64,000 bases of DNA from Rhizocola hellebori (GTDB taxonomy: Bacteria; Actinomycetota; Actinomycetes; Mycobacteriales; Micromonosporaceae), in contig NZ_BONY01000001.1 of assembly GCF_016862955.1 (NCBI RefSeq), forward strand, positions 62,001 to 126,000. Reading direction: 5' to 3'. The notes beneath the pieces were generated by a model. It searched no databases, was not told the DNA's origin, and worked only from the letters and a program-made list of their open reading frames with translations. The position numbers were made by a program, and so were the translations under genes. Of this stretch, positions 60,525 to 64,000 are shown piece by piece (the stretch's first letter is position 1; every line of letters begins with the position of its first letter).

Positions 60525-61313
60525 TCAGCCAAGGAATTCGTCGACCGCCGCCGCGGTCTGGTCGAACTGTTCCACCTGGGGCAGATGGCCACTCTGCTCG
60601 ATCATCGCCACCTTGCTGTGGGCGATGAGGTCGGCGAAGTCGGAGGCATAGCGGGACGGCACGAAGGCGTCCTGCCGGCCCCAGACGATCAGGGTGCTGG
60701 AGGTGATTCGGTGCAGCCGCCGGCGCAGGCCGCGATCGGGAATCGGCCAGATGAACTTGCCCGCACAACCCAGCGACCACACCATCTGCGAGGCCGCGAC
60801 CACGGCGGTCTCCGGGTCCTCCGGCATGGCCATGGCCACCTTGGCCACCTCGGGATTGTGGAAGAGGATGCCGGGCAGCTGCTCGGCCGAAGCGGCCAGC
60901 AGGTTGGTCACCGGCGCATCGTCGCGCCAAAGCCCAAGCGGGGCAAGCAGAACCAGCCTGTCGGTCAGCGAGGGGAAATGGGCGGCCAGCTCGGCGGCGA
61001 GCATCCCGCCGAACGACTGTCCAACCACGACCGGATTGTCCAGGCCCAGATTGCGCACCAGTTCCTCATACGCCAGCACCATGTCGGAAAGCTCGTCGAC
61101 GACATGGATCGAATAAGGATCTCCCAGGGTGGTACCGGGAAACTGCGGCGCATACACGGTGTGCCGCTCGGTCAGGTGTTGCAGGAACGGATCCCACGCC
61201 AACCCGGCCGCCTGGTGCAGATAGAGCAGGGGCGGGCCGGTTCCGGCGACGCTGACGGCCACGGTCAGCTTGCCGCCCCACAGCTCGACGGTCTCCTGAC
61301 GAACCTCGGACAT
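60525..61313 (-). CDS. Alpha/beta-fold hydrolase
   Basis: About 262 residues from the ATG that shares one base with the monooxygenase stop (TGATG). Nucleophile elbow GQSFGGML, Asp segment VWGRQDAFVP and His segment QSGHLPQVEQF form the triad; LLYLHQAAGL holds the oxyanion position. This is the common lactonase/esterase/C-C hydrolase fold. It is the last gene of the cupin, luciferase-like monooxygenase, hydrolase operon, so it may open or hydrolyse the monooxygenase product, for example a Baeyer-Villiger ester. Confidence 0.9.
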   Translation of the reverse strand: MSEVRQETVELWGGKLTVAVSVAGTGPPLLYLHQAAGLAWDPFLQHLTERHTVYAPQFPGTTLGDPYSIHVVDELSDMVLAYEELVRNLGLDNPVVVGQSFGGMLAAELAAHFPSLTDRLVLLAPLGLWRDDAPVTNLLAASAEQLPGILFHNPEVAKVAMAMPEDPETAVVAASQMVWSLGCAGKFIWPIPDRGLRRRLHRITSSTLIVWGRQDAFVPSRYASDFADLIAHSKVAMIEQSGHLPQVEQFDQTAAAVDEFLG

Positions 61314-62575
61314 CAGACGCTCACCTTCTCTCCCGGCTTCGCGGTGGCGGGTGCGGGCTTGCCGCCCAAGCGTTCCGGCCACCAATGGTGCTCGAACCCG
61401 CTGTCGGACCACAGTTTGCGCAGATGCGGCGCCACCTGTTCGGCGAACAGCTTGATGTTGCCCTTGGCCAGCTCCGGCGGCATCGACCCGAAGCTGAGCA
61501 TCGCGTGCAGGTTGCCGATGCCGTGCTGCTGGCACAGCTCGGTCAGCTGGTCGCGCACGGTGGCCGCGCTGCCGACCACGACCGTGCCGTTGTCGATGAG
61601 ATCGCGCAGCGACGCGGTGCGCATCTGCGCGTACATGCCGAAGTCGGCCGGATCCTTGAGCAGCGCCTGCACACCGCGGATGTCGATCCCGCCGGGAAGG
61701 GAGAGCTTTTCGGCCGGAATGGCGCCCAGTCCGGTGTGGAAGGCGTACTCGATGTGCTTGCCGTAAAGCCGTTCGGCTTCGGCGTCGGTGTCGGCGACCG
61801 CCACGTTCTGCAGGAAGCCGACCCGATACGGGTTGCGCGGGATGTTCGACTGTTCCGCCAGCTCCCAGAACCGGGGGAAAATCCGCTGCGCGGTGAGCTT
61901 GCTGCCGGCGAAGCCGAAGAAGTTGAAGCCGAATCCTCGCTCCAGCACCTGTTGCATGGTGGCCGGGTTACCTATCCCGGTCAGCCACACCGGCGGCTGC
62001 TCCTGCAGCGGCCGTGGCCAGATGTTGACCTGCGGGTATTGGATGTGTTTTCCGTTGAAGGCGAAGGGAATCTGGTCGCGCCACGCGCGCAGCACCAGAT
62101 CGAGGTTCTCGTTGAATCGGCCCCGCACCTCGATGGGCGGCACTCCGTTGTTGATGCTCGCGTCGTAGCTCAGGCCGACCGGGAACCCGGCCACCAGCCG
62201 CCCGCCGCTCATCACGTCAAGCAACGCGTACTCCTCGGCCACCTTCACCGGCTCGCGCGACTTGCCCAGCGAACGGCCCATCGGATAGACGGCCACGGGC
62301 AGCCCTTCGGCTTCGGTGACATAGGCCAGCGCGCCCGCCACCACATTGGGATTGGGCATGACGTCATAGCTGCTCTGCCCGTGCTCGGTGATGGAGACGC
62401 CGTCCAGGCCGCAGCGCGCGCCGAAGAGCAGCTCGTCGATGAGATGGCGCACCGACGCGTACATGCCGTCCTTGGTCACGAGCGAATAGGGGGTGTCGCA
62501 GACCGAGTCGTGATGCTGGGCGAAGTCGTCCGGCAGGTAGCGATACGCGGCCTGCCCGAAGATTGAGACCTTCAT
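61313..62575 (-). CDS. Luciferase-like flavin monooxygenase (LLM class)
   Basis: 420 residues. The TIM-barrel bacterial-luciferase fold shows DGVSITEHGQSSYDVMPNP, GRSLGKSREPVKVAEEYALL, VMSGGRLVAGFPVG and PPVWLTGIGNPATMQQ, typical of FMN- or F420-dependent LLM enzymes. It oxidises a small substrate, often a ketone to ester or a C-H bond. It lies 11 bp downstream of the cupin and overlaps the hydrolase by one base. Next to the PKS genes at the right edge, it could be a tailoring enzyme or belong to a separate catabolic unit. Confidence 0.9.
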   Translation of the reverse strand: MKVSIFGQAAYRYLPDDFAQHHDSVCDTPYSLVTKDGMYASVRHLIDELLFGARCGLDGVSITEHGQSSYDVMPNPNVVAGALAYVTEAEGLPVAVYPMGRSLGKSREPVKVAEEYALLDVMSGGRLVAGFPVGLSYDASINNGVPPIEVRGRFNENLDLVLRAWRDQIPFAFNGKHIQYPQVNIWPRPLQEQPPVWLTGIGNPATMQQVLERGFGFNFFGFAGSKLTAQRIFPRFWELAEQSNIPRNPYRVGFLQNVAVADTDAEAERLYGKHIEYAFHTGLGAIPAEKLSLPGGIDIRGVQALLKDPADFGMYAQMRTASLRDLIDNGTVVVGSAATVRDQLTELCQQHGIGNLHAMLSFGSMPPELAKGNIKLFAEQVAPHLRKLWSDSGFEHHWWPERLGGKPAPATAKPGEKVSV

Positions 62576-62586
62576 GCTTCTCCCGC

Positions 62587-62967
62587 CTACAGCTGGACGA
62601 CGAGCACGACCGACTCGCCATTGACGCTCTTGCTGGCATGGCCTTTGCCGGTGGTGTCCTCCACCAGAACCGTCTCGCCCGGACGGAACTGGCGCACCTC
62701 GCCATCGCTGGCCCGCACCTCCAGCGCCCCACTGAGCAGCGTCATCTGCTGACGCCGGGGCGCTGGGTGCAGGTCGCCGTACCAGCCGGTGGGCAGCTTC
62801 AAATAGACCATCTGCTTGACCTCGGTCGGCGCGGACATGAACATCGGCGGGGCCGGAGGCGCGAAGTCAACCTCTTGCACCTGCGCCGTCTCGTCCAGGA
62901 AATGGGATTCGCCCGCCGAGTCTGTGTAAAGTCGCGTGACATTTAGCTTGCCTGAGTCCGCTGCCAT
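62587..62967 (-). CDS. Small cupin-domain protein
   Basis: About 126 residues from ATG 62967, with GAGGAG four bases upstream; the reading from 62979 is less likely. A single cupin barrel: WYGDLHPAPRRQQMTLLSGA gives the first cupin motif with His, and LEVRASDGEVRQFRPGETVL, then a GKGHASKSV loop give the second. It may bind metal or flavin, or act as a dioxygenase/isomerase. It is the first gene of the three-gene operon, and a terminator and a tRNA-like RNA lie just upstream on the same strand. Confidence 0.8.
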   Translation of the reverse strand: MAADSGKLNVTRLYTDSAGESHFLDETAQVQEVDFAPPAPPMFMSAPTEVKQMVYLKLPTGWYGDLHPAPRRQQMTLLSGALEVRASDGEVRQFRPGETVLVEDTTGKGHASKSVNGESVVLVVQL

Positions 62968-62977
62968 GTCTCTCCTC

Positions 62978-63011
62978 AAAAAAGAGGCGAACCGGCCGTA
63001 GCCGGTTCGCC
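62978..63011 (-). terminator. Canonical intrinsic terminator of the tRNA-like RNA
   Basis: On the minus strand, an 11-bp perfect stem (GGCGAACCGGC and its complement, 62986-63011) closes a TACG loop and is followed by TCTTTTTT (62985-62978). This is the best intrinsic terminator in the window. It begins five bases past the discriminator of the tRNA-like RNA. It also overlaps the leader of the cupin gene, so the cupin operon may depend on readthrough or its own promoter. Confidence 0.92.
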
Positions 63012-63016
63012 GCGAG

Positions 63017-63102
63017 CGGAGAGGGCAGGATTCGAACCTGCGTGAGCCGGAGCTCTTCCAGACCGAAGTCCGGATCCGATAGGCCGCTACGGTGACCTCT
63101 CC
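63017..63102 (-). tRNA. tRNA-Ser-like RNA with a UUCG tetraloop in place of the anticodon loop
   Basis: Read on the minus strand, the RNA has a perfect 7-bp acceptor stem (GGAGAGG/CCTCTCC), D arm (CCG/CGG with a Gly-Gly-type loop GCGGCC), a long variable arm (GAGC-TCCG-GCTC) and a 5-bp T arm GCAGG-TTCGAAT-CCTGC, then discriminator G and no encoded CCA. The variable arm and G73 are serine-tRNA features. The anticodon arm (63057-63074), however, folds as a 7-bp helix TCCGGAC/GTCTGGA capped by TTCG. Even if the stem is cut to 5 bp, the loop is eight bases. A clear terminator follows, so it looks transcribed and not a fragment. No decoding role is likely; it could be a charged non-decoding tRNA. 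Confidence 0.8.
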
Positions 63103-63172
63103 AGTTTCCCGGCTGAACTTCCGCCGTTGAGACCAACTATGGCAGGCCGCGCTGACCGTTGGCTGATCGATG

Positions 63173-63272
63173 GCTGACGGGTCATCCGTCAGCGGACCGT
63201 CAGAGCCCCATCACCTATCTATGTTACTGATTGTTATAAATCCCTCGACTGAATTGGGCGGGCATCACCTAT
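63173..63272. promoter_or_regulatory. Leader and promoter-like region of the carrier/ketosynthase genes
   Basis: This stretch holds a short hairpin (GCTGACGG/CCGTCAGC, 63173-63193), an AT-rich patch with TATAAA at 63235-63240 that could be a -10 element, and a 10-bp direct repeat CATCACCTAT at 63209-63218 and 63263-63272, the second copy spanning the carrier start codon. No good -35 is seen. Function is inferred from position only. Confidence 0.4.
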
Positions 63273-63654
63273 GGAATCGACCTCGACCATTGTGCGGCTA
63301 CGGTCGCTGCCCATGTCGGAGCGCCGCGAAGAGCTGGAGTCGACGATCCTGTCGGTTCTCAGAGCCGCGCTTCTGATGAACGAGGACGAACCCATATCCA
63401 CCTCGCAGAGCTTTTTCGACATGGGCCTGACCTCGCTCGCGCTCACCGAGGCCAAGGAGCGGCTGGAGGGCATGCTCGGCTGCCACATCAGCGCGACCGT
63501 GCTGTTCAACAGCCCGACCGTGGAGCAGATGACCGATCATCTGGCCGGCGATGTGCTCGCCGACCTGTTCGACGAGCACGACTCGGCCGCGCCCGGCAAC
63601 GGCAAGCGGCCGTTGTGGGATGACGTGATGAGAGACGTGGCAGTCAGTGAGTGA
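63271..63654 (+). CDS. Free-standing acyl carrier protein
   Basis: 127 residues, longer than a bare carrier. Residues about 20-95 form the carrier fold with the phosphopantetheine site Ser55 in FFDMGLTSLAL and helix 3 in FNSPTVEQMTDHL. A charged tail follows. ATG 63271 or ATG 63313 is the start; no strong ribosome site precedes either. It is followed 12 bp later by the ketosynthase gene and is probably a loading or shuttle carrier for it. It differs in sequence from the carrier at 43138. Confidence 0.88.
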   Translation: MESTSTIVRLRSLPMSERREELESTILSVLRAALLMNEDEPISTSQSFFDMGLTSLALTEAKERLEGMLGCHISATVLFNSPTVEQMTDHLAGDVLADLFDEHDSAAPGNGKRPLWDDVMRDVAVSE

Positions 63655-63666
63655 GGAGTCAGCCAG

Positions 63667-64000
63667 ATGACCGAAAACGTCGCAGTCATCGGGGTCGGGT
63701 TGCGTTTCCCGGGCGGTAGCACGGGTTTGGACAGTCTTGACGAGTTCCTGCGCGGCGGCGGCTCGGGCATCGGCCCGCTGCCCGCCGACCGCTGGGACGT
63801 CGAGGCTTTTCGCCACGAGGATCCCAAGCAGCCGGGCACCATCCGCACCGAGGCCGGTGGATTCCTTGACCGGATAGACGAATTCGACGCCCAATTCTTC
63901 AACATCTCCCCGAAGCAGGCGGTCTACGTCGACCCACAGCAGCGGCTGCTGCTGGAAACGGCGTGGGAAGCGCTGGAGAACGCCAACATCGACCCGTCCA
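63667..64000 (+). CDS. Polyketide synthase ketosynthase, 5' part only
   Basis: 111 residues from ATG 63667 to the right edge, with GGAG about nine bases upstream. The start MTENVAVIGVGLRFPGG, followed by PLPADRWDVEAF, GGFLDRIDEFDAQFFNISP and VDPQQRLLLETAWEAL, is the N terminus of a type I modular ketosynthase. The catalytic Cys lies beyond the window. Domain make-up and length are unknown. A CCR gene 17 kb away could supply its extender unit; this is inference. Confidence 0.93.
   Translation, partial: MTENVAVIGVGLRFPGGSTGLDSLDEFLRGGGSGIGPLPADRWDVEAFRHEDPKQPGTIRTEAGGFLDRIDEFDAQFFNISPKQAVYVDPQQRLLLETAWEALENANIDPS

Follow-up and report, generated by a model that had tools for sequence, protein, structure and literature searches.

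What role could be played by an RNA that has the class II fold of a tRNA-Ser and carries a closed hairpin at the position of the anticodon arm? The gene that raises this question, referred to here as copy a, lies at positions 63017..63102 on the minus strand of the 64-kb window, by which we mean the whole stretch of DNA analysed. Its minus-strand sequence is GGAGAGGUCACCGUAGCGGCCUAUCGGAUCCGGACUUCGGUCUGGAAGAGCUCCGGCUCACGCAGGUUCGAAUCCUGCCCUCUCCG. When run on the window, ARAGORN reports it at 63016-63102 (-) as 'tRNA-???' with an unreadable anticodon, and the covariance model R1 described below scores it at 102.4 bits.

An RNA family with a closed central arm

Folded without constraints, the minus strand has a class II cloverleaf of -41.9 kcal/mol as its minimum-energy structure. 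Together with the ARAGORN result this structure bears out the sequence-only reading, which had described a class II tRNA-like RNA with acceptor, T, D and variable arms and a discriminator G; the strand, which that reading did not give, is minus. The 5' strand of the acceptor stem, GGAGAGG (63096..63102), forms 7 bp with the 3' strand CCUCUCC (63018..63024), and the discriminator G73 is at 63017. The D arm, CCG...CGG with GG in its loop, occupies 63076..63092, the variable arm GAGC-UCCG-GCUC with its 4-bp stem 63044..63055, and the T arm GCAGG-UUCGAAU-CCUGC, with a 5-bp stem that includes the pair A51-U63, 63025..63041, all on the minus strand. The central arm in the anticodon position (63057..63074, minus strand) reads UCCGGAC-UUCG-GUCUGGA, and the unconstrained fold reproduces the 18-base arm of seven pairs closed by UUCG that had been claimed for it; the alternative reading with a 5-bp stem does leave an eight-base loop, ACUUCGGU, as had also been noted. 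Five bases past the end of the RNA, where a terminator had been placed, there is an intrinsic terminator stem-loop (62986..63011, minus strand) of 11 pairs that is followed by the T-run TCTTTTTTGA.

The Rfam tRNA family RF00005 matches the RNA with 34.8 bits in a whole-genome search (gathering cut-off 29) and is left unlisted by cmscan with Rfam's fast filters. Within the 64-kb window cmscan gave no gathering-score match to Rfam regulatory families, T-box included, and ARAGORN found no tmRNA. In tmRNA, too, the tRNA-like domain lacks an anticodon arm, and it is charged; tmRNA differs from our RNA in combining this domain with an mRNA-like one and in acting on the ribosome. Members of the family are misnamed by tRNA gene finders or given assorted anticodons, which may be a reason why the family has been overlooked.

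A DNA search revealed that the genome has a second copy 25.5 kb from copy a; it also found two copies in one relative (88% and 76% identical) and one copy in another family, and R1 was built from these five. Three short DNA matches (L004-L006) were rejected as partial chance matches, and an ARAGORN match elsewhere (L040, 16999) was rejected as not belonging to the family. With R1 the RNA was detected at the majority of VlmA-homologue loci, and the resulting alignment holds 100 copies with 91 distinct sequences. Across these 91 the acceptor, T, D and variable arms and G73 are conserved; the acceptor stem and the T arm hardly vary, G73 and the GGA of positions 1-3 never do, and the pairs 1-72, 2-71 and 3-70 are kept. 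In 14 rows a pair of the D stem is A-U instead of G-C. In the central arm 92% of the cells are paired and 6 of the 7 pairs have changed on both sides, and the structure as a whole is 95.3% paired against 87.7% in shuffles (0 of 500 reach the observed value), all these counts being biased towards the model used to fit the alignment and referring to sequences rather than events. Slid-register controls are only 37-60% paired. An independent check, in which the 3' halves of 20 dissimilar arms were swapped among them, changed the mean stability from -11.0 to -5.2 kcal/mol.

The stems of the central arm range from 4 to 13 bp and vary in sequence, while the loops (UUCG, UUUU, UCCG, GCAA and others) measure 3-6 nt in 87 of the 91 distinct homologues. 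The remaining four have 7 to 10 nt, and the sole 7-nt loop, AAACUCG, is without the U expected at position 33. The sequence-only reading had proposed that homologues be inspected for an ordinary seven-base anticodon loop and for conservation of the arm; no copy examined among the 91 has a normal loop, and the arm is kept as a helix through compensatory changes. The central hairpin looks like a structural cap in which the sequence is free and the pairing is maintained. The 8-nt loop that can be read in copy a might still suggest some unusual form of decoding, for example by a frameshift suppressor with an enlarged loop. However, the short loops of the homologues stand on longer stems and have no common triplet, and we give such a function hardly any credence.

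The gene cluster and its promoters

The surroundings of copy a are as the sequence-only reading described them, with a tailoring-type operon on one side and polyketide genes on the other. Directly after the terminator lies a cupin-like gene (62587..62979, minus strand), which has a weak Cupin_2 match (E 0.004) and a 75% identical syntenic gene in another genome (G019), and then a luciferase-like monooxygenase gene (61313..62575, minus strand; PF00296). On the other side there are genes for an acyl carrier protein (63271..63654, plus strand; PF00550) and for a PKS that begins at 63667..64000 on the plus strand and runs beyond the window into the adjoining sequence (L009) as one ORF on the joined sequence, with the domains KS-AT-DH-ACP at L009:3-3428.

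The second copy is divergent from the gene of a PF09924 (LPG_synthase_C) protein, which is VlmA-like. Between the two copies we found genes for a PLP decarboxylase, a SARP, an acyl-CoA dehydrogenase-like protein, a DUF4260 protein, a flavin reductase, an R2/AurF-like protein, an amino-acid permease and a second SerRS. Judged by its predicted proteins, this gene set is that of valanimycin-type azoxy synthesis. The second SerRS (TIGR00414, 412 bits, above the cut-off) is the likely counterpart of VlmL and is about 42-44% identical to the housekeeping SerRS; SerRS genes are present at 24 of the 80 VlmA loci, and the second SerRS is 55-72% identical to most of them. The protein with a BTAD/SARP domain is the likely counterpart of VlmI. 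The acyl-CoA dehydrogenase-like protein is a candidate VlmH, and the flavin reductase, the DUF4260 protein and the R2-like/AurF protein are candidates for VlmR, VlmO and VlmB, respectively; these single-enzyme assignments rest on domain matches, several of them weak, and on gene order rather than on direct comparison with the vlm proteins. The cluster has a homologue or likely counterpart for each of VlmA, VlmL, VlmH, VlmR, VlmO, VlmB and VlmI; it differs from the valanimycin pathway in that the openly accessible literature mentions no dedicated tRNA for the latter. Further out (L009 3-6317 and L010 4778-17336), a PKS module, an AMP ligase, a thioesterase, a SnoaL protein, a sulfotransferase and a TPP enzyme are encoded among the azoxy genes, with PAPS-type genes next to them, and the cluster possibly directs the synthesis of an undescribed azoxy product.

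Upstream of copy a there is a SARP-type array of 11-bp direct repeats, TCAGN7TCAGN7TCAG (63152..63177, minus strand), and a TCAGN7TCAG pair of the same type precedes the divergent ACP/PKS operon (63189..63203, plus strand). SARP promoters are known to contain direct repeats with 11- or 22-bp spacing, the final repeat being separated from the -10 element by 8 bp (PMC10936776). In valanimycin synthesis, sites with three repeats that precede vlmJ and vlmA-vlmH are bound by the SARP VlmI (PMC10972967). TCAG repeats at 11-bp spacing occur at both copies of the RNA in this genome and at other promoters of the cluster. The 64-kb window contains three TCAG pairs, a number unremarkable by chance, all of them at the promoters of the RNA and of the divergent ACP gene; two 20-kb stretches beyond the window hold 6 and 4 pairs against about 0.5 expected. 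Within 110 nt upstream, TCAGN7TCAG is found at 67 of 96 distinct copies as compared to 37 of 4800 random windows, also at copies distant from vlmA, and the repeats are usually triple, with a TGnCA..T-like element about ten bases downstream. We infer that the SARP of the cluster binds the TCAG repeats.

The terminator after copy a abuts the ribosome-binding site of the cupin gene (window 62979-63011), and read-through from the promoter of the tRNA-like gene may drive expression of the cupin/monooxygenase operon.

Co-occurrence with VlmA

The RNA lies in the flanks (up to 10 kb) of 59 of 80 loci of close VlmA homologues. The other 21 loci belong to 20 genomes, 16 of which carry the RNA elsewhere according to whole-genome searches, so that about 75 of the 79 genomes with close VlmA homologues possess it; it is absent from four of these genomes and from most of those with distant homologues. 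In an evenly drawn sample of 395 genomes of the class (9 with VlmA, 386 without), the RNA was found in 5 genomes, each of which has a VlmA of 58% identity or more, and in 0 of the 386 genomes lacking VlmA (Fisher 1.3e-11). In the order sample of 299 genomes (12 with VlmA, 287 without), with the RNA threshold set at 70 bits or more, the RNA was present in 7, all among the 12, and in 0 of the 287 (Fisher 2e-11). Two matches of about 60 bits in the class sample were rejected as ordinary tRNA-Ser. In the VlmA tree the core clade is RNA-positive in 80 of 84 rows, while among seven more distant homologues the RNA is present in two (G044 and G183) and absent in five. Close relatives within all these counts are not independent of one another.

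Where copies are linked to vlmA, most of them are encoded on the opposite strand at a distance of about 200 bp, and tandem arrays may comprise up to four copies. In one genome of Streptomyces atratus, a species named as an elaiomycin producer (PMC11705231), the RNA is situated just upstream of vlmA on the same strand (L101, 9766-9856). The unlinked copies adjoin unrelated genes. An alternative partner for them is unsupported: apart from a purE/purK-like pair and a GT87 gene, which recur in two genomes, no neighbour is shared. The genomes in which the VlmA loci of Kitasatospora mediocidica and Streptomyces diastatochromogenes were found (G342 and G346) have 11 and 8 copies dispersed over the assembly (L231-L246); the 16 dispersed copies that were fetched have in common a block made up of promoter and RNA, which mostly ends near the RNA 3' end.

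The position of copy a between a SARP-type promoter and an operon, with the terminator adjoining the cupin ribosome-binding site, is what one would expect of a cis-acting leader that controls read-through into the cupin/monooxygenase genes. Alternatively, the RNA might be a decoy that titrates SerRS or EF-Tu, and neither role would involve donation of serine. The prevailing arrangement of linked copies relative to vlmA, the tandem arrays and the unrelated neighbours of unlinked copies are nevertheless difficult to reconcile with these functions. A cis element would not be expected to co-occur with VlmA genome-wide at a distance, and the retained acceptor stem, G73 and canonical T loop point to charging. 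We therefore consider a leader or decoy unlikely, and the regulatory decoy that the sequence-only reading had offered as its alternative is the less likely of its two proposals.

The lack of an anticodon and the location of some copies at contig ends could suggest that a tRNA gene has degenerated or that an integration site has left a remnant, and the block shared by the dispersed copies stops where insertions at tRNA ends would stop. Against this stand an acceptor stem and T arm that are nearly invariant across many families, compensatory changes in the D and central arms, the retention of the upstream boxes and the tie to VlmA. This RNA is not a degenerate tRNA gene. Because of the covariation, the loop size and the co-occurrence we reject the pseudogene, integration-remnant and decoding readings, and decay or insertion appears highly improbable as an explanation of the family.

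A putative seryl donor outside translation

VlmA moves serine from seryl-tRNA to a hydroxylamine in azoxy synthesis (PMC9379638, PMC12945691, PMC11705231). Our best explanation, to which we assign a probability of about 0.85, is that the RNA is a pathway-specific non-decoding seryl-tRNA of a valanimycin-type azoxy pathway, which would be charged by SerRS, stay off the ribosome and be used by VlmA. The computed support for it consists of the fold, the covariation, the missing anticodon loop, the co-occurrence with VlmA, the clustering with SerRS and azoxy genes and the SARP-type boxes. The sequence-only reading, which had suggested a dedicated seryl donor as in valanimycin formation, gains independent support from the genome-wide co-occurrence, the second SerRS within the cluster and the common promoters. 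Transcription, charging with serine, escape from EF-Tu and use by VlmA are the steps that we infer. According to this scheme, the SARP activator would turn on the RNA gene together with the pathway genes, the transcript would be processed and receive its CCA, and either the cluster SerRS or the housekeeping one would charge it with serine. Since a closed hairpin replaces the anticodon arm, the RNA cannot decode, and its binding to EF-Tu may be weakened by the T-stem pair A51-U63, so that the seryl group would be reserved for the VlmA-like transferase and moved onto the hydroxylamine.

Serine identity is independent of the anticodon, as the sequence-only reading had noted, and depends on the variable arm, aided by G73 and the acceptor stem, with G1-C72 and G2-C71 conserved in bacterial tRNA-Ser (PMC9976931); for this reason the RNA should be chargeable with serine. 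The family has the class II fold, G73, the serine-type acceptor pairs and the UUCGAAU T loop in common with decoding tRNA-Ser. It differs from them in being without a 7-nt anticodon loop on a 5-bp stem, in the SARP-type direct repeats upstream of most copies and in the pair A51-U63, found in each of the 91 sequences of the model alignment; the corresponding pair is G51-C63 in the four decoding tRNA-Ser that were recovered from the same genome. The class II tRNAs recovered in the whole genome are two Ser-GCT, one Ser-GGA and one Ser-CGA; Ser-UGA was not found there, perhaps due to a gap in the draft assembly. A decoding tRNA-Ser(GCT) of this genome (L195, G000:C18) has the same acceptor stem, GGAGAGG, as the tRNA-like RNA, and a Ser-GCT is a possible ancestor of it.

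The proposal that the VlmA homologue of azodyrecin synthesis uses alanyl-tRNA, with the cellular alanyl-tRNA pool as the source, leaves room for a VlmA donor that carries an amino acid other than serine. The long variable arm, G73, the serine-type acceptor pairs, the second SerRS in the cluster itself and the SerRS genes at other VlmA loci all argue against this, and we find it very unlikely.

The VlmA-bearing genomes that are free of the RNA, the alanyl-tRNA proposal for azodyrecin and the retention of G18G19, unlike in the Staphylococcus aureus precedent, weigh against a private seryl donor. The published substrate of VlmA is Ser-tRNA(Ser); an ordinary tRNA may therefore suffice, and VlmA may favour the RNA as a donor without depending on it. 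The non-proteinogenic tRNA-Gly isoacceptors of S. aureus are a known example of tRNAs that donate amino acids outside translation; they serve cell-wall synthesis and have in common with our family A51-U63, there part of a weak EF-Tu element (PMC4052509). In these tRNA-Gly, however, G18G19 is replaced, whereas in our family it is the anticodon arm that is replaced, and the family belongs with a secondary-metabolite pathway that has a SerRS and a transferase of its own. The tRNAOther of Bacillus cereus is likewise a tRNA-like RNA with a role outside translation, but it bears a Trp anticodon, is charged poorly and belongs to a larger regulatory RNA, and reports of it come from the B. cereus group alone (PMC3399842). 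Our literature search, which covered openly accessible papers, found no anticodon-loop-less tRNA gene family within a secondary-metabolite regulon.

According to a 2014 review (PMC4052509), it was unknown how Ser-tRNA is diverted from translation into valanimycin and which tRNA features are recognised by VlmA and VlmL. The RNA family provides a concrete and testable answer to the question of diversion. We think it likely that actinobacteria harbour a widespread tRNA family that has lost decoding and serves solely as a seryl donor for N-N bond natural products, with its own synthetase, transferase and regulon. If this is true, it would be a tRNA family stripped of its anticodon and devoted to a small-molecule pathway, a natural case of a charged RNA kept out of translation, and a marker for azoxy clusters in genome mining. 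It would also constitute a pathway-specific aminoacyl-tRNA channel by which antibiotic production is separated from protein synthesis.
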